The notes beneath the pieces are model-generated. The model was not told where the DNA came from, searched no databases, and was given only the letters and a program-made list of their open reading frames with translations. The translations under genes were made by a program, and so were the position numbers. A stretch of 64,000 nucleotides of DNA from Pseudomonas lopnurensis (GTDB taxonomy: Bacteria > Pseudomonadota > Gammaproteobacteria > Pseudomonadales > Pseudomonadaceae), in the NCBI RefSeq assembly GCF_015070855.1, contig NZ_JADDIX010000092.1, forward strand, positions 45,675 to 109,674. Reading direction: 5' to 3'. The number at the start of each line of letters is the position of its first letter. Position 1 is the stretch's first letter. Shown in pieces: positions 3,656 to 44,636 of the stretch.

Positions 3656-4759
3656 TCATGTGGCGGCTTCCTTCTTGTGGCTTGTAGCTTGTGGCTTGAC
3701 GCTCCGCGCGAAGCGCGGCTTGTAGAGAATCAGCACGTCGCAGGCCAGCAGGAAGAACAGCACCATGCCCTGGAACAGCTGGGTGATCGATTGCGGCAGG
3801 TTGGCCGCCATCTGCGCGTTTTCGCCGCCGAGATAGAGCAGCGCCATCAGCAGGCTGGCGAAGACGATGCCGATCGGGTTGAGGCGGCCGAGGAAGGCCA
3901 CGGTGATCGCCGCATAGCCGTAGCCCGGCGAGACCTGCGGCACCAGTTGGCCGATCGGCCCGGTGACTTCGGCGACGCCGGCCAGCCCGGCCAGGGCACC
4001 GCTGATCAGCAGGGCGATCCAGACCAGCTTCTTGTCGCGGAAACCGACGAAGCCGGCGGCGCGCTTGTCCAGGCCGAGCACCTTGATCTGGAAGCCGAGA
4101 AAGCTCTTCTGCAGCAGCACCCAGACCACCACCAGCGCCAGCAGGGCGAAGTAGAAGCCGGCATGCACGCGCAGGCCGTCGATCAGTTCGGGCAGCCGGG
4201 TGGCGTCGCCGAACATCGCCGATTCGGGGAAGTTGAAGCCGTCCGGGTCCTTCAGCGGGCCGTGCACGGCGAACAGCAGCAGGTTCAGCGCGATGTAGTT
4301 GAGCATGATGCTGGTGAGGATCTCGTTGGCGTTGAAGGCCGTCTTCAGCCAGGCGCAGAGCCCGGCCCAGGCGGCGCCGCCGAGGGTGCCGGCCAGCAGC
4401 GCCAGCACCAGCGCCCAGCGCGAATCCCAGTCGATGATGTGCACCGCCAGCGCGCTGCCGGCCAGGGCGCCGATCAGCAGCTGGCCTTCGGCGCCGATAT
4501 TCCAGATGCGCGCGTTGTAGACCACCGCCAGGCCCAGTGCGCAGAGCAGGATCGGCAGCGCCTTGACCAGCAGTTCGGAGACGCCGTAGAGGTCGGCGAG
4601 CGGATCGACCAGCAGCACCTTGAGCGTTTCCAGCGGCGGATGGCCGAGGATGGCGAACAGCAGTGCGCCGCTGACCAGCGTCAGCAGCGCCGCCAGCAGC
4701 GGCGAGAACCAGAGCATGGCGCGCGATTGCTGGCCGCGCGGTTGAAGGGATAACAGCAT
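3656..4759 (-). CDS. ABC transporter permease, nucleoside/purine (BMP) type, first subunit
   Basis: A 367-residue integral membrane permease (BPD_transp_2 superfamily) and partner of the protein at 2677-3612. The segment GLAVVYNARIWNIGAEGQLLIGALAGSA and the NEILTSIMLNYIA stretch are typical of the NupP/YufP subunit of BMP-dependent nucleoside uptake systems. Its last 15 residues (KPQATSHKKEAAT tail) are encoded by repeat-like DNA and are probably not functional. It begins 13 bases after the ATPase stop, so translation is likely coupled. Confidence 0.9.
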   Translation of the reverse strand: MLLSLQPRGQQSRAMLWFSPLLAALLTLVSGALLFAILGHPPLETLKVLLVDPLADLYGVSELLVKALPILLCALGLAVVYNARIWNIGAEGQLLIGALAGSALAVHIIDWDSRWALVLALLAGTLGGAAWAGLCAWLKTAFNANEILTSIMLNYIALNLLLFAVHGPLKDPDGFNFPESAMFGDATRLPELIDGLRVHAGFYFALLALVVVWVLLQKSFLGFQIKVLGLDKRAAGFVGFRDKKLVWIALLISGALAGLAGVAEVTGPIGQLVPQVSPGYGYAAITVAFLGRLNPIGIVFASLLMALLYLGGENAQMAANLPQSITQLFQGMVLFFLLACDVLILYKPRFARSVKPQATSHKKEAAT

Positions 4760-4771
4760 GGTGAACTCTCG

Positions 4772-6355
4772 TCAGGCGGCAGAGGTGGGAACGGGGGTGG
4801 CGGTGTCGAACTGGCCGGCCATCCAGCGACCGACTTCCACCGCGCAGGTGGAGGCGGTGGCGCGTTGCGGCGACAGCTTGCCTTCGCTGAGGGCGGCGAT
4901 GCGGTCGCTGATCTGGAACAGTTCCTCGAGGTCTTCGGAGATCACCAGGATCGCCGCGCCGGCATCGCGCAGTTCGATCAGTGCGCGGTGGATCGCCGCC
5001 GCGGCACCGACGTCGACGCCCCAGGTCGGGTGCGCGGCGATGAGCAGCTTCGGCTGCTGGAGGATTTCGCGGCCGAGGATGAATTTCTGCAGGTTGCCGC
5101 CGGAGAGGCTGGCCGCCGATGTCTGTGCGTCCGGCGTCTTCACCGCGAAGCGCTGGATGATGCGCTCGGCGAAGGCCTGGACCTTGCCGCGCCGGATCAG
5201 CCCGCGCTCGACCATGCCGGTCTGCTGGAAGGCGGTGAGCAGGCCGTTGTCGGCCAGGCTCATGCTCGGCACCGCGCCATGGCCGAGGCGTTCGGCGGGG
5301 ACGAAGGCCATGCCGTGACGGCGGCGGGCATCGGGGCGCAGATGGGCGACGTCGTCGCCGAGGAAGCGGATGCGCCGGGCCTCGCCGCTCGGCAGCCGTT
5401 GCTCGCCCGAGAGCAGGGCGAGCAGTTCGTCCTGGCCGTTGCCGGCGACCCCGGCGATGCCGACGATTTCGCCGGCGCGCACTTCCAGATCCACCTCTTC
5501 GAGCGAGACGCCGAACGGATCGGCGTTGTGCCAGGACAGTCGCTCCACCCGCAGGAAGGGCGTACGGCCCTCGCTCTTCGAGTATTCGGCTTCCAGCCCC
5601 TCGGCATCGCCGACCATCAGCCGCGCCAGCTCCAGGTCCGAGCACTCGGCCGGCACGCATTCGCCGGAGACCTTGCCGGCGCGCAGCACCGTGGCGCTCT
5701 GGCACAGCGCGCGCACTTCATTGAGCTTGTGGCTGATGAACAGGATGCTGCAGCCCTCGGCCGCCAGCCGACGCAGGGTGACGAACAGCTCGTCGGCCTC
5801 CTGCGGGGTGAGCACCGAGGTCGGCTCGTCGAGGATCAGCAGCTTGATTTCCTGCATCAGGCAGCGAACGATCTCCACCCGCTGGCGTTCGCCGATGGAC
5901 AGGCTGTGCACCAGCCGCTGCGGCTCCAGCGGCATGCCGTAGCGCTGCGAGACTTCGCGAATCTTCGGTTCCAGCTGCTTCGGCGTGCCGGCCCTGGCGC
6001 CCAGGGCGAGGGCGATGTTCTCCGCCACGCTGAGCGTCTCGAACAGCGAGAAGTGCTGGAACACCATGCCGATGCCGCGCTCGCGCGCCTGGGCCGGGTC
6101 GCGCATGGTCACGCGCTCGCCTTGCCAGACGATCTGCCCGGCGTCGGGCTGGGTGACGCCGTAGATGATCTTCATCAGGGTGCTCTTGCCGGCGCCGTTC
6201 TCGCCGAGCAGGGCGTGGATCTCGCCCGTCTGGATCGACAGGTCGATGTGGTCGTTGGCCAGGCAGCCGGGATACTGTTTGGTAATGCCGGTCAGCTGCA
6301 GGCGTGCGGTCTGTGGTTCGGGCATGGAGGCGTCCGCTGGGTTTTTCATGGTCAT
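4772..6355 (-). CDS. ABC transporter ATPase with two nucleotide-binding domains, nucleoside/purine (BMP) type
   Basis: A 527-residue tandem ATPase of the RbsA/NupO arrangement. NBD1 has Walker A GENGAGKST near residue 53, signature LSIGERQRVEI and Walker B LLILDEPTSVL. NBD2 has a degenerate P-loop (GVAGNGQDE) and signature LSGGNLQKFILGRE, as expected for this subfamily. It energises the two permeases downstream on the same strand for cytoplasmic uptake of a nucleoside or purine. No BMP/Med lipoprotein gene, the usual substrate-binding partner, is present on either side. The operon is divergent from the AraC gene at 6611, and the shared 255-base region contains a perfect 12+12 inverted repeat (6426-6453). 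Confidence 0.92.
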   Translation of the reverse strand: MTMKNPADASMPEPQTARLQLTGITKQYPGCLANDHIDLSIQTGEIHALLGENGAGKSTLMKIIYGVTQPDAGQIVWQGERVTMRDPAQARERGIGMVFQHFSLFETLSVAENIALALGARAGTPKQLEPKIREVSQRYGMPLEPQRLVHSLSIGERQRVEIVRCLMQEIKLLILDEPTSVLTPQEADELFVTLRRLAAEGCSILFISHKLNEVRALCQSATVLRAGKVSGECVPAECSDLELARLMVGDAEGLEAEYSKSEGRTPFLRVERLSWHNADPFGVSLEEVDLEVRAGEIVGIAGVAGNGQDELLALLSGEQRLPSGEARRIRFLGDDVAHLRPDARRRHGMAFVPAERLGHGAVPSMSLADNGLLTAFQQTGMVERGLIRRGKVQAFAERIIQRFAVKTPDAQTSAASLSGGNLQKFILGREILQQPKLLIAAHPTWGVDVGAAAAIHRALIELRDAGAAILVISEDLEELFQISDRIAALSEGKLSPQRATASTCAVEVGRWMAGQFDTATPVPTSAA

Positions 6356-6425
6356 GGCAGAAGCAAAAAGCTGGCCAGGTAGTCAGGAAATTGGTCATGG
6401 CGCAGACGACCGCATAGCGTGCCGG

Positions 6426-6453
6426 CCGGCTACCATCGGAGGATGGTAGCCGG
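6426..6453. promoter_or_regulatory. perfect 12-bp inverted repeat in divergent promoter region
   Basis: CCGGCTACCATC and its exact reverse complement are separated by GGAG. The site lies between the divergent starts of the ABC ATPase (6355, minus) and the AraC regulator (6611, plus). No T-run follows on either strand, and no gene ends here, so an operator or RNA hairpin near the 5' ends fits better than a terminator. The binding protein is unknown. Confidence 0.5.
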
Positions 6454-6610
6454 TGCGTCGCTTTGGTGCTCGCATTGCCGAATGCCGGCGCGGGTGCACC
6501 TGTTCTGGGCGCTATGGCCGGGTGGCTGCGAACGGTCGAGCGGGCTCTGCGAAGACGCCATGCGGCCTGCTAAGCTGTCTGCCCACCCCCGCAACCTGAC
6601 GGACCGAACC

Positions 6611-7522
6611 ATGAACCAGCCAGCCATCGCCGCCGAGACGATCGCCCAGCGTGCCGCGCTGGCCCGCCTGATCGATGGCCTCGTCAGCGAGGACGGGATG
6701 CATCCCACCGCCATCGACGATCTGTACCTGATCCGCTGCAGCGCGCCGAGCGAGCCGGTGCATGGGCTGCACAAGCCGGCGTTGTGCGTCATCGTGCAGG
6801 GCAGCAAGGAGGTGCGCCTGGGCGACGAGCGCTATACCTACGATGCGCTGCGTTACCTGGTGGTATCGGTCGCCGTGCCGGTGGCCGGTCGCGTGCTGGA
6901 AGCCTCGCCGGGCGAACCCTACCTGTGCATCCGCCTGGATATCGACCCGGCGCTGATCGCCACGCTGGTGGCCGAAGCCGGCCCGGTCGATGCCGGCGGC
7001 GGACCGCAACGGGGGCTGTACCTGGACCGGATCGATGCGCCGTTGTTGGATGCGACCCTGCGCCTGGTGCGTTTGCTCGATTCCCCACAGGACATTGCGG
7101 TACTGGCGCCGCTGGCGCTGCGCGAGATCTTCTATCGCTTGCTGCGTGGCCAGCAGGGGCGGCACCTGCACGAGATCGCCGTGCGCGACAGCCAGGGGCA
7201 TCGCGTCACCCGCGCCATCGAATGGTTGAACCGCAACTACGTCGAACCGCTGCGCATCGACGAGCTGGCGCAGCGGGTCAACCTCAGCAGTTCGACGCTG
7301 CACCACCGCTTCAAGGCGCTGACCGCCATGAGCCCGCTGCAGTACCAGAAGCAGCTGCGCCTGCAGGAGGCGCGGCGGCTGCTGATCGCCGAGGGGCTCG
7401 ACGTCTCCAGCGCGGGTTACCGGGTCGGCTACGAAAGCCCCTCGCAGTTCAGCCGTGAGTACAGTCGGCTGTTCGGCGCCTCCCCGGTCAAGGACCTGGC
7501 GCGCCTGCGCAGCATTGCCTGA
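6611..7522 (+). CDS. AraC family transcriptional regulator
   Basis: A 303-residue regulator. The N-terminal half matches the AraC_N (PF06719-like) sensor seen in regulators of SDR/oxidoreductase genes (HKPALCVIVQGSKEVRLGDE near residue 55). The C-terminal 100 residues carry two helix-turn-helix units (IDELAQRVNLSSSTLHHRF and a second within DVSSAGYRVGYESPSQFSRE). The reading frame is open from 6419, but ATG 6611 begins the family-typical sequence. It converges with the minus-strand CMD and SDR genes, leaving three bases between the stops, and probably regulates them; this kind of AraC/oxidoreductase pairing is common in pseudomonads. Confidence 0.9.
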   Translation: MNQPAIAAETIAQRAALARLIDGLVSEDGMHPTAIDDLYLIRCSAPSEPVHGLHKPALCVIVQGSKEVRLGDERYTYDALRYLVVSVAVPVAGRVLEASPGEPYLCIRLDIDPALIATLVAEAGPVDAGGGPQRGLYLDRIDAPLLDATLRLVRLLDSPQDIAVLAPLALREIFYRLLRGQQGRHLHEIAVRDSQGHRVTRAIEWLNRNYVEPLRIDELAQRVNLSSSTLHHRFKALTAMSPLQYQKQLRLQEARRLLIAEGLDVSSAGYRVGYESPSQFSREYSRLFGASPVKDLARLRSIA

Positions 7523-19740: not shown

Positions 19741-19912
19741 TCAGCATTCGATGATCACGATGTGGTCGGTCAGCGGATCCTTCTTGCTGCAGCAAGGCCA
19801 GCGAACCCGTTTCGTGCCGTGCGCTCTAGCGCGCAGCTTTTTCGGATACTTTTCATTGAAATGGACCTGCTGGTAATGTCACGTCGTTAACCAAACAAAA
19901 TGGAAGAACTTG

Positions 19913-20710
19913 ATGGCCGGCGAGGACTGGGCAGTACGAGCGCCACAAACTAAGCTGGAGCGTATGGAGGCGTACTTTAGTGGTTTTGGTTTTGAGCCTC
20001 ACCGGCACGACACCTATGCTGTCGGTCGCACCCTCGCAGGAGTCCATAGCTTCCGCTATCGAGACGGCATGAAACATAGCCTTCCGGGCGGGACGATCGT
20101 AATCCACCCTGACGAATTGCACGACGGCGAAGCTGGAAGCATCGACGGCTTTCACTATCGGATTCTCTACATCGAACCCGCTCTCTTGCAGAAAGCTCTT
20201 GGTGGAACGACGTTACCGTTTGTACCAGACGGAATTTCACGAGATCCGCGCCTCTACGCAGCTACGCAGACGTTAATGCAAGAAATGGACTGCGTAATCG
20301 AGCCGCTTGAGGAAGAAGACGCCATCTACGATCTTGCGCAGGCCCTTGCCGCAGTTTCGGGGATAAGAAAGCGCCGTCGGACTTTAAATTACACGGCTGC
20401 CGAGCGTGCTCGTGAATTCATTCACAGCGCATTGGATTCAACCATATCGCTTGATCAGCTCGAAGCGGCCAGTGGTCGGGATCGCTGGAGTCTTTCCCGC
20501 GATTTCAGGGCGCTTTATGGAACGAGTCCTTACCGGTATCTAACGATGCGGCGTTTAGACCAAGTCAGACGACAGCTACTGGCGGGGCAGCCATTGATCG
20601 ATGCTGCGTTGAGCCTTGGCTTTGCCGATCAGAGTCACATGACCCGCCATTTTAAGAAAGCGTACGGAATCTCTCCAGCGCGGTGGCTCGAAATGCTACG
20701 CCGTTGTTGA
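19913..20710 (+). CDS. cupin-type AraC transcriptional regulator (island)
   Basis: A 265-residue regulator. The N-terminal cupin sensor (PHRHDTYAVGRTLAGVHSFR, then HSLPGGTIVIHPDELHDG) is the form often found beside LysE- or AzlCD-type amino acid exporters. The C-terminal AraC domain has helix-turn-helix units at SLDQLEAASGRDRWSLSRDF and ALSLGFADQSHMTRHF. ATG 19913 has GGAAG 7 bases upstream; TTG 19910 is an alternative. It is 206 bases upstream of the precursor peptide gene, in the same direction, and is the likely local activator, perhaps sensing an amino acid or the pathway product. Confidence 0.9.
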   Translation: MAGEDWAVRAPQTKLERMEAYFSGFGFEPHRHDTYAVGRTLAGVHSFRYRDGMKHSLPGGTIVIHPDELHDGEAGSIDGFHYRILYIEPALLQKALGGTTLPFVPDGISRDPRLYAATQTLMQEMDCVIEPLEEEDAIYDLAQALAAVSGIRKRRRTLNYTAAERAREFIHSALDSTISLDQLEAASGRDRWSLSRDFRALYGTSPYRYLTMRRLDQVRRQLLAGQPLIDAALSLGFADQSHMTRHFKKAYGISPARWLEMLRRC

Positions 20711-20916: not shown

Positions 20917-21081
20917 ATGAGCAAAAACCATATCTCGTTGGTCGGCGGAACGCTTGGCGGTACCGTCGGAGGCACGGTAGGTGGCACGGTGGGCGGGACA
21001 GTTGGCGGAACGGTCGGTGGTACGGTAGGCGGCACATTTGCCGTAGGCGGGATGCAGTTGAGCAAGCGACTGACGAAGTGA
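20917..21081 (+). CDS. GGTV-repeat peptide, putative RiPP precursor
   Basis: A 54-residue peptide. A short leader (MSKNHISLV) is followed by eight tetrads, GGTL, six GGTV and GGTF (residues 10-41), then AVGGMQLSKRLTK. AGAGAGGAA lies about 7 bases before the ATG. It has no Cys, Trp or Tyr, and only one Phe. The tetrads are encoded by different synonymous codons (all four Gly and all four Val codons occur), so the repeat is conserved as protein and is not a recent DNA expansion. Its place 73 bases before a radical SAM/SPASM gene and upstream of an oxygenase suggests it is the modified substrate. The 4-residue Gly spacing also forms a GxxxG glycine zipper, so a membrane-active peptide is an alternative. 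Too short for many gene callers. Confidence 0.78.
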   Translation: MSKNHISLVGGTLGGTVGGTVGGTVGGTVGGTVGGTVGGTFAVGGMQLSKRLTK

Positions 21082-21154: not shown

Positions 21155-22652
21155 TTGAACCTGCCCGATACCGAATCTTATGTTCTTTCAGCCGATGTAG
21201 TTCAAAACGAAATTGGTGACCGCTTCGCGACCTATCATCGCCTCCTGGGGGGATTGTTCTTTCTGGATCGCTACGGCCAAGAGCTATTAGAAGCGTACCG
21301 CACGCCGAAGCCTGTCCGTACCGCGCTTCTTTCCGGCGAAGCTCGAACAAGGGAGGAAGAGTTGACCCAGCAGCTTATTGCCCGGCATATCCTCGTGCCG
21401 GTTCGCGTTCGGCAGTCACGTAGTGAGCCCGCGTCGCTGGAAAAAAAGGTCAACATTATTCAGCTGATTCTCGCGAATGCCTGCAACTTCGGCTGTACCT
21501 ATTGCTTTGAAGGCGTTCAGGGCAAGAAAATGTCCGCGGAAGATGAGTACAACAAAGTTGATACGTCGCGGCTGATCGCCCGTGAAGGGATTAAGGTGAA
21601 CATCGAGGACTCCATTTATGCCTCGAAAGAACGCTTTGACCATCAGTACGACTCAAAGAATCGGTCGATGAAGCCAGCCGATGGTATCGCTTATGTCGAG
21701 TCCGCTCTTGCTGTGGCTCGTTCCGAAGGCGTTCGAGAAGTTATGCTTCAGTTCTTCGGGGGTGAACCGCTGCTCAACTGGCGCACAATTCACGCTGTTC
21801 TTGAGCGTTTTGGAAACGGCGAAAGCGAAGGCGTCAAGATCAATTATTCGACCGTTACAAACGGCTCCCTCATCACCGAAGAGGTGGCGGAAGCGTTTGC
21901 GAAGTATCAGGTTGCCGTCTGCGTCAGCTTTGATTCGCCGACGAGCCCCAGTAGACCTCTCAAAAACGGTGATGACAGCACGCCCGTAGTGATGCAGGGC
22001 CTTCGGACACTTCAGAGGTTTGAGAACCGAGTGGCTATCAATGCTGCGCTAACCTCTGCAACTTGGGATGACTTCAATAACTCAATTGTAGACCTCGCCG
22101 TTGATGTCGGGGCACAAGAAATCGGGGTCGTAGTCGATTTTGACCCTACGTTTTATTCAAATTATGGAGCACAACGTATTGTCGACCGCCTCTGGAAAGT
22201 CGTTGAGTACGGCAGGACGCGTGGGGTGGTATTGACCGGTTATTGGCATCAGATTTTTCAAGTCATGTTGGGTTTCGATTAGCGTCTCTTATCGAGGATT
22301 CAAGAATTGCTCTGCGAAAGGCGCGCAGTTCAGTATTGAGCCGAATGGCTCTGTATTCGCCTGTAAAGCTGGGTCGACTCTGCTGGGCGACATCCGGGAT
22401 GGCACCAAAATCTTGGATTCGCAACCGTACTTGAAGCACGCCGAACTTCGCAGAGATAACCCAGCTTTTTGCCACGGATGTGAAATAGAAGGTTTCTGTG
22501 GCGGGTTATGTTTGGGACCTTTGGAGAAGAAGTTCGCATCATTTAATGCGGTCGAGCCATCTGCCTGTGACTTTTACCGAGGTATTACTCGAAAACACAT
22601 CGGCTCACTTCAGTCCTACGAGATTGCCACCTTTGATCTTCAGTCGGCTTGA
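21155..22652 (+). pseudogene. radical SAM/SPASM peptide-modifying enzyme, single apparent frameshift
   Basis: The first frame (21155-22282, 375 codons) starts at TTG with GGAGAG about 8 bases upstream. Residues 8-82 resemble a PqqD-like peptide-recognition (RRE) domain. The radical SAM cluster motif is C110-N-F-G-C114-T-Y-C117, followed by FFGGEPLLNW. The frame stops at a TAG (22280-22282). One base further on, the 0-phase frame continues SVSYRGFKNCSAKGAQFSIE, then FCHGCEIEGFCGGLCLG and ACDFYRG, a Cys-rich SPASM-type domain for auxiliary iron-sulfur clusters, ending at 22652. An extra base near 22281 explains the break. Intact length would be about 499 residues. It is predicted to modify the GGTV peptide. 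Either a decayed gene or a sequence error. Confidence 0.82.
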
Positions 22653-22662
22653 GAGAAGAAAT

Positions 22663-23399
22663 ATGAATAACATTATGGCTAGACTCGGTGCGGTTACTTC
22701 AACTGATAGCAAATTTGTAGAAAGCGGTTTTTGTGTTATTGATATGCCGGTCATGCCTGCATCCTTTCAATCCTCGTTTGCAAACTTGCCGCGCGACAGC
22801 CATAGCCCCAGTCGACTTCGACAGATTCGGCTCTCTCAATACATGGGTTCTGGGATGAGGATGCGTGGGTGTTCGCATTATTGCCTCAGCGGAAGTATAT
22901 TCAGTCGGCCCGATACATAAAGTTGGCGGAGGCAGGAGGGGTGCCAAGGCATCGTGAACAGCTCGAAGTGAATCCGGCGCCTCTCATTGCTTGTGTTCTC
23001 GATGCACTGCCTATCAACCGGAAAGACAAGTTACAGGTAAATGTTAATCAGATCCGGGTCGTGGCGAACAAACTTTTCCGTGGCGTGACCGTGCCTGAAG
23101 GCCCACATAGGGATGGCCATGAGTACAGCGTAATTGCTGTGGCGCACCGAGCGAATGTCAAAGGGGGCGAGACACAGGTCATCGATCCGGTCTCAAACAA
23201 GGTCGTATTCAGGCAGACACTGAATGAGAATGAGGCCATCGTCATCGACGATGAGCGATATATTCACTATGCAACTAATATTGAGCCCGCCGAAGGTGAA
23301 GCTGGATTCCGCGATATTTGGGTTATTGAAATCAACCGTTGGGAGAATCGCGCCTACGGACGGGCTCATGAAAGATTGGCAATGTCGGCTGATGAGTGA
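22663..23399 (+). pseudogene. 2OG-Fe(II) dioxygenase (PF10014/BsmA-IDO type), single apparent frameshift
   Basis: The N-terminal frame from ATG 22663 (GAGAGAAGAA upstream) encodes ARLGAVTSTDSKFVESGFCV to LSQYMGS. A missing base near 22853 then shifts to the frame WDEDAWVFALLPQRKY, ending at 23399. The catalytic core shows H-R-D-G (HRDGHEYSV), RANVKGGETQ and DDERYIHYATNI, the iron and 2-oxoglutarate pattern of the family that includes Bacillus L-isoleucine 4-hydroxylase and BsmA. Members hydroxylate free aliphatic amino acids. It starts 11 bases after the radical SAM gene and ends immediately before azlC (TGA then ATG), so it is part of the operon. It may hydroxylate Val/Thr in the peptide or a released residue. 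Like the radical SAM gene it is broken once. Confidence 0.8.
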
Positions 23400-24140
23400 A
23401 TGAGATACGTTCTGCGTGTGTTTAACAGGCCAGCCAGTTCGCAAGAGGCAGGAACAGGCGTTGCCGTGCTCCGCCGGGTGGTTCCAACAGCGCTGGCCAT
23501 CGTTCCGGTAAGCATGCTGTTTGGTGTGCTTGCCGCACGGGGTGACTGGACTGTTCTTGAAGTGCTTGCTGTTGGTCTGCTGGGGTTCTCCGGAAGCGGC
23601 CAGTTTGCACTTTTGCCGCTAGCTGAGGCCAACACTGGGTTTCTTACGATGCTGCTGGTAACCGCGTCTATAAACAGCCGATACCTTCCAATTGCCTACG
23701 CGTCAGCGAGGCGCCTCCCGACGACAATCACTAAACGGGCGTTTACCGCGCATATGTTGGGTGACGAAGCCTATGCAACAGAGCAGGAGTCGGACAGTTG
23801 GCGAACGGTACTTTTTATACGAGCGGTAATCTTCGCCACTTGGGTGGGTTCTGGGGTAGTCGGAGCTCTGCTTGGACAGTTCATTCCGTCTGATTGGATC
23901 AGTGAAGGCGTTAATCTCGGCTTTCCTGCAAGCGTTGTGCTCATGTATCTGTCTGTAAGTCAGCTACGGTCCAGATTGTGGCTACCACGGAGCGACTCGC
24001 GTGATCGCTCCGGTTTGCTTGGTGTCGCCGGGCTGTGTGCGGGCGCTGCGTTGCTTTTGATCAACCTGGTAGGTCCGCTTTACTTTTGGATACCAGGTAT
24101 ATTGATTGCAACGGTACTCTTAGGGCGTGCAAAAATATGA
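23400..24140 (+). CDS. azlC: AzlC family branched-chain amino acid exporter, large subunit
   Basis: A 246-residue membrane protein with the AzlC pattern: an early amphipathic stretch, VPVSMLFGVLAARGDW, FSGSGQFALLPL and SINSRYLPIAYASA. AzlC with AzlD exports branched-chain amino acids and analogues (4-azaleucine resistance in Bacillus, YgaZH valine export in E. coli). It begins one base after the oxygenase stop, and its own stop overlaps the azlD start. The coupling to a hydroxylase suggests export of a modified amino acid or small peptide product, but this is inference. Confidence 0.9.
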   Translation: MRYVLRVFNRPASSQEAGTGVAVLRRVVPTALAIVPVSMLFGVLAARGDWTVLEVLAVGLLGFSGSGQFALLPLAEANTGFLTMLLVTASINSRYLPIAYASARRLPTTITKRAFTAHMLGDEAYATEQESDSWRTVLFIRAVIFATWVGSGVVGALLGQFIPSDWISEGVNLGFPASVVLMYLSVSQLRSRLWLPRSDSRDRSGLLGVAGLCAGAALLLINLVGPLYFWIPGILIATVLLGRAKI

Positions 24141-24439
24141 ACCCTTCGACGATCATTGCTATTGCAGCATTATTTGTTACAAGTTTCCTTGTACGTATCC
24201 TTCCTGTTTTTGTCACGTTTCAGTTCGGCGGTGCGAGCCAGCGCTATCTTGAGCGCGTACTCCCGGCTGCGGTATTTATAAACTTTGCCGTTTATATCGT
24301 GTATACGGAGACCCTGCGAGAACCTACGGCTGCTCTGGTTTCACTTGGCGTAGTTGCTATCATTGCCGCGCTGGGCTTATTTGGACTGATTGCCGTCGTA
24401 GGAATCGGGACTATTATTTATTTTGCGCTGGTGGCTTGA
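24137..24439 (+). CDS. azlD: AzlD family exporter subunit
   Basis: A 100-residue protein with three to four hydrophobic segments, of the AzlD/YgaH size and pattern (SFLVRILPVFVTFQFGGASQ, RVLPAAVFINFAVY). The ATG overlaps the azlC stop as ATGA, so the two subunits are translationally coupled. The longer open frame from 24035 is inside azlC and not used. It is the last recognisable gene of the island. Confidence 0.88.
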   Translation: MNPSTIIAIAALFVTSFLVRILPVFVTFQFGGASQRYLERVLPAAVFINFAVYIVYTETLREPTAALVSLGVVAIIAALGLFGLIAVVGIGTIIYFALVA

Positions 24440-44576: not shown

Positions 44577-44625
44577 TTCAGGCTTCAGGCTTCAGGCTTC
44601 AGGCTTCAGGCTTCAGGCTTCAGGC
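44577..44625. repeat. seven tandem copies of TTCAGGC
   Basis: An exact heptamer repeat (49 bases, 7 units) lies 11 bases after the csgG stop and 144 bases before the csgB start. Heptamer tracts can change copy number by slippage. Being in the intergenic DNA, a change would alter spacing and not a reading frame. Confidence 0.85.
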
Positions 44626-44636
44626 GAAGGCGCGTG

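Follow-up and report, generated by a model that had tools for sequence, protein, structure and literature searches.

The window, a stretch of 64,000 nucleotides from Pseudomonas lopnurensis, contains on its forward strand a small open reading frame (20917-21081, +) encoding a peptide of 54 amino acids, MSKNHISLVGGTLGGTVGGTVGGTVGGTVGGTVGGTVGGTFAVGGMQLSKRLTK, for which orthologues were found in other bacteria and which we refer to as tvgA. The translation consists of a short N-terminal stretch (MSKNHISLV), a core of eight in-frame tetrads at 20944-21039 (one GGTL, six GGTV and a final GGTF) and a C-terminal tail, AVGGMQLSKRLTK, at 21040-21078. The preliminary description had counted eight GGTV tetrads, and while eight tetrads are indeed in frame only six of them read GGTV. 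Tandem Repeats Finder called the array at 20940-21035 with a period of 12 and also called periods of 36 and 48; by score the 48 bp period was best (81% matches), followed by 36 and then 12 bp. All four glycine codons are used in the array together with ACG, ACC and ACA for threonine and GTC, GTA, GTG and GTT for valine, as the preliminary description had it. The repeat places glycine at positions i and i+4 and is mildly hydrophobic. A plausible ribosome-binding site, AAGAGAGGAAA, lies 5' of the tvgA start codon. No peptide family model in Pfam or NCBIfam matched the peptide.

The peptide gene is followed on the same strand by four further genes and is preceded by that of an AraC-family regulator (19910-20710, +; Pfam AraC_binding 3e-23, HTH_18 1e-21), relatives of which were found near most homologous cassettes (family F2, 15 loci). 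Immediately downstream, tvgB (21155-22652, +) encodes a radical SAM/SPASM enzyme with an RRE-like N-terminus, assigned from the Pfam Radical_SAM match, from alignment and from a fold match to TigE. It is followed by tvgC (22663-23399, +; PF10014, 1.6e-27), a Fe/2OG dioxygenase of the BsmA/isoleucine-hydroxylase family in which the Fe/2OG residues (HxD...H and R) are invariant. The last two genes encode membrane proteins: tvgD (23400-24140, +; PF03591, 1.9e-24) belongs to the AzlC family of branched-chain amino-acid exporters, and tvgE (24137-24439, +), which overlaps tvgD by ATGA, to the AzlD family (PF05437, E 0.008, below the cut-off). Both recur as families among the relatives, the AzlD-type protein as family F3 in 15 loci, and Pfam found no peptidase domain in either of them. 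At a distance from the cassette, at 44577-44625, the window also carries seven perfect copies of TTCAGGC just 5' of an open reading frame start at 44634, a heptamer array which, judged by its sequence, could be phase-variable.

The closest solved structure to TvgB was 8vpo, TigE of Paramaledivibacter caminithermalis (profile E 8e-112; fold rank 1). An AlphaFold model of TvgB was of low quality across the SPASM region (mean pLDDT 67.5), so only the TigE match backed by sequence was used. Neither the peptide nor the enzyme passed a specific NCBIfam cut-off, and since the enzyme scored far below the cut-offs of the NCBIfam peptide-maturase models, automatic annotation would probably call it simply a radical SAM protein. 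PADLOC matches to viperins were weak, reflected generic radical SAM similarity and were rejected.

The neighbouring enzyme genes, which the preliminary description did not mention, identify a known pathway. It was reached through the solved structure 8vpo and the search term cyclopropylglycine; the literature search found no paper directly tying GGTV repeats or AzlC to a radical SAM enzyme. The TVG pathway of Halomonas (Litchfieldella) anticariensis is encoded by tvgABCDE, comprising TvgA with TVGG repeats, the radical SAM enzyme TvgB, the dioxygenase TvgC and the membrane proteins TvgD and TvgE (PMC9062424). In vitro, TvgB links both gamma-methyl groups of valine in the TVGG repeats to give cyclopropylglycine, a loss of 2 Da per unit that was established for the H. 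anticariensis peptide by mass spectrometry and NMR (PMC9062424). The GGTV register of the preliminary description and the published TVGG register are one and the same repeat. The window cassette shares with that of H. anticariensis the repeat motif, the enzyme families and the order peptide, radical SAM enzyme, dioxygenase and two membrane proteins. Among the genomes inspected, Litchfieldella anticariensis FP35 (locus L005) is DSM 16096, the strain named by a review as that of the published tvg cluster, and the window TvgB is 79% identical to its enzyme over 371 residues (residues 5-375). The window tvgB encodes the CxxxCxxC motif as well as the SPASM cysteines, but the frameshift at 22279 separates the latter from the rest of the enzyme. 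The two cassettes differ in unit number, with six GGTV units in the window compared to ten GGTV and one SGTV in the H. anticariensis array, in the first unit, which is GGTL in the window, and in the state of tvgB and tvgC, which are frameshifted in the window assembly. Given the identity to the enzyme of the TvgB strain together with the same gene order and repeat, the window cassette is a new copy of an already known and already explained system. We conclude, with a probability of roughly 0.94, that the open reading frame at 20917-21081 is tvgA, a multi-core TVG precursor in which the valine residues of the repeats would be converted to cyclopropylglycine by TvgB.

Relatives of the enzyme were collected by scanning GTDB genomes as well as the family to which the window belongs. 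Close relatives of TvgB were found in Pseudomonadaceae, Halomonadaceae, Marinobacter and other marine gammaproteobacteria, in Burkholderiales, in one Neisseriaceae genome and in one sphingomonad. A GGTV peptide lies directly upstream of the enzyme gene in all 20 of the 20 full-length proteobacterial relatives inspected, which excludes a chance association and indicates that the peptide motif is under selection. It is also present upstream in locus L021, where the enzyme gene has been cut short and runs into dioxygenase sequence as a fusion. The usual cassette consists of the peptide, the radical SAM enzyme, the PF10014 protein, AzlC and AzlD, with the AraC regulator nearby, and the CxxxCxxC motif and SPASM cysteines were kept in each of the 18 aligned intact relatives. 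Arrays beside full-length enzyme genes contain 4 to 11 valine units and that of L021 three. No exception to Gly-2 or Thr-3 was seen among the 193 tetrads of the 22 arrays, and position 4 is valine apart from terminal units, the first unit of the window and an isoleucine-based array from Actinocrinis. This is in keeping with the earlier proposal that these are old repeats maintained at the protein level, and the frameshifted or non-GGTx orthologues that the preliminary description held would speak against it did not appear. Outside the repeats the most regular part of the peptide among relatives is the ending of the tail, L...L(T/S)K, which from its conservation may be a recognition sequence. 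The three-unit DNA pattern GGTVGGTVGGTV occurred in none of 368 other genomes of the class. The enzyme tree departs from taxonomy in places, with Pseudomonas sp. URMO17WK12:I2 grouping with Burkholderiales (support 99/98). A search of plasmids returned one distant relative of the enzyme only (30%), on a Streptomyces plasmid (locus L046, 7896-17428) where its neighbours include a phytanoyl-CoA-type dioxygenase and a pair of carbamoyltransferases; that locus yielded no repeat peptide.

The strain studied here may have lost the function of the pathway. Compared with the intact relatives L038 and L039, tvgB contains an extra T at 22279 (+), so that the gene is open in one frame to 22282 and in another from there to 22652, and TvgB is cut before all of the SPASM cysteines; in tvgC one base is missing at about 22845. 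The reading frames of tvgA, tvgD and tvgE are still open. Because of the two frameshifts the pathway would not work as assembled and this strain may make nothing from it. We give an even chance to the explanation that the cassette is a dead remnant, with tvgB and tvgC reduced to pseudogenes and with a drifting tvgA whose first unit has changed to GGTL. Such a first unit was seen in the window alone among the arrays inspected, and in a coarse check of about 12.7 kb against the closest available genome (G072, 84-91% identical, with no match to tvgB) no other broken genes were seen, both of which favour decay of the cassette, as do the two single-base frameshifts themselves. Decay does occur in the genus, as in locus L041 (9388-12183) where only an AraC gene, an enzyme fragment and AzlCD remain and neither an intact peptide gene nor an intact dioxygenase gene is present. 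On the other side, with L039 as outgroup, the window branch carries 5 non-synonymous and 34 synonymous substitutions in tvgB (7 and 60 on the intact branch) and 4 and 16 in tvgC (5 and 14 on the intact branch), substitutions which resemble those of the intact branch and look purifying, so that decay would be very recent at most and the frameshifts are either mutations of recent date or errors of the assembly at these sites. This explanation bears on this strain's copy and does not conflict with the identification of the cassette as a TVG pathway.

The preliminary description had offered regular enzymatic modification or helix packing in a membrane as what might be selected, and of these only modification stood, the peptide being a substrate of a TvgB-type enzyme. 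The spacing of glycine at i and i+4 and the mild hydrophobicity of the repeat are what an unmodified, membrane-active or membrane-packing glycine-zipper peptide would have, but the peptide is constantly paired with a TvgB-type enzyme, and the published TvgB modifies exactly the GGTV/TVGG motif. Moreover, the array of locus L015, beside an intact enzyme gene, has four units and, at 16 amino acids, falls short of the length of about 20 residues for a membrane span, as does that of L021 beside its truncated enzyme gene (three units, 12 amino acids). We therefore consider a glycine zipper very improbable.

Codon mixing between units was found to be a property of the whole family. In a comparison of units across 21 genes there were 1650 synonymous and 88 non-synonymous differences, as would be expected from the selection on the amino-acid motif that the preliminary description had proposed. 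When codons were permuted within each gene as a shuffle control, adjacent units were found to share fewer identical bases than the shuffles (0.750 compared to 0.784, z -6.1; z -4.6 with one gene per lineage) and units four apart shared more (z 4.9; 3.1 with one gene per lineage). Only one of 139 adjacent pairs was identical, in line with the earlier argument against recent slippage. Two explanations fit this pattern, either selection against identical neighbours, which would be prone to slip, or growth of the array through block duplications, two or four units at a time, which would separate identical units without any selection, and under both of them recent slippage of single units is argued against. 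That the repeat is merely a by-product of replication slippage with no selection on the peptide has a negligible probability: the detectable 36 and 48 bp block periods and the likeness of units four apart do indicate that block duplication occurs, but the excess of synonymous differences, the lower similarity of adjacent units than in the shuffles and the persistence of the motif beside the same gene in alpha-, beta- and gammaproteobacteria all stand against it.

Sequence and fold place TigE and the window TvgB in one radical SAM/SPASM subfamily, and the two are about 30% identical. TigE reportedly acts on isoleucine or valine in repeats of a motif other than GGTV, its precursor motif being said to be of the TIGSVS type; this type of motif is absent from the window peptide, in which the motif is GGTV. 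A variant of the repeat was observed in Actinocrinis puniceicyclus (locus L020), where two TvgB/TigE-like radical SAM enzymes are encoded in tandem (about 4480-5930 and 5935-7464) downstream of a peptide of the form (GGTI AGTI)x4 GGTA (about 4250-4390). The replacement of valine by isoleucine in these repeats suggests a methyl-cyclopropyl product. A search for further GGTI arrays by way of the enzyme, run over 245 genomes of the Actinocrinis order, gave no other case.

By homology to the H. anticariensis system, TvgB would convert the valine of each TVGG/GGTV unit to cyclopropylglycine, and thanks to the repeats each translated peptide would yield the same small building block many times over. 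TvgC would then probably hydroxylate cyclopropylglycine, perhaps as the free amino acid rather than in the peptide, and the AzlCD-type pair would export the small, amino-acid-like product. TvgC belongs to the isoleucine dioxygenase/BsmA family (PF10014; PDB 6lnh, 8jms, 9dq0), its substrate being predicted, and it is closer to 8jms and 9dq0, for which a literature search found no publication, than to the isoleucine hydroxylase 6lnh. The 2022 paper expected that TvgC oxidises the peptide and that TvgD and TvgE hydrolyse and export the product (PMC9062424). A free amino-acid product would, we infer, be a better fit, since Pfam places TvgD and TvgE in the AzlC/AzlD exporter family and detects no peptidase domain in them, since the TvgC family includes hydroxylases of free amino acids such as isoleucine-4-hydroxylase, and in view of the downstream neighbours in three variant clusters. 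Downstream of the cassette of Massilia sp. Root335 (L012, 8306-12404) lie genes for a TauD-type dioxygenase and a threonine dehydratase, together with a partly masked NRPS adenylation region. That of Pseudomonas sp. URMO17WK12:I2 (L011, 4855-8389) likewise has a TauD-type dioxygenase behind it, here along with a carbamoyltransferase and a LysE exporter. In Rhizorhapis suberifaciens (L018, 8264-9214) a WelO5/HilA-like dioxygenase follows tvgC and no AzlCD was recognised.

The extended cluster of L011 resembles the gvg cluster for 4-formylaminooxyvinylglycine in its small open reading frames, carbamoyltransferase and LysE exporters, and the gvg paper mentions no radical SAM enzyme (PMC8064604). 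An FVG/gvg identity, which L011 had raised, was set aside for the window cassette, as neither a carbamoyltransferase nor a formyltransferase was found by the ORF list and Pfam among its adjoining open reading frames.

Taken further, tvgA genes may be a ribosomal means of producing a free cyclopropyl amino acid in quantity, which would be hydroxylated and either exported by the AzlCD-type pair or, in some bacteria, passed to NRPS, carbamoyltransferase or dioxygenase enzymes, with codons arranged so that neighbouring 12 bp units differ and the number of repeats is held against slippage. We put this forward tentatively and at less than even odds. From the codon statistics, codon mixing would keep the peptide motif while lowering 12 bp slippage, and the avoidance of codon identity between adjacent units is thus a testable case in which the choice of codons may keep a repetitive gene stable. 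Judging from the variants of the downstream genes, cyclopropylglycine may leave the pathway, itself or as a derivative, in the form of a free amino acid, a point left open by the 2022 paper. A reading that starts from the peptide alone can lead to an enzymatic pathway that is missed by family models.
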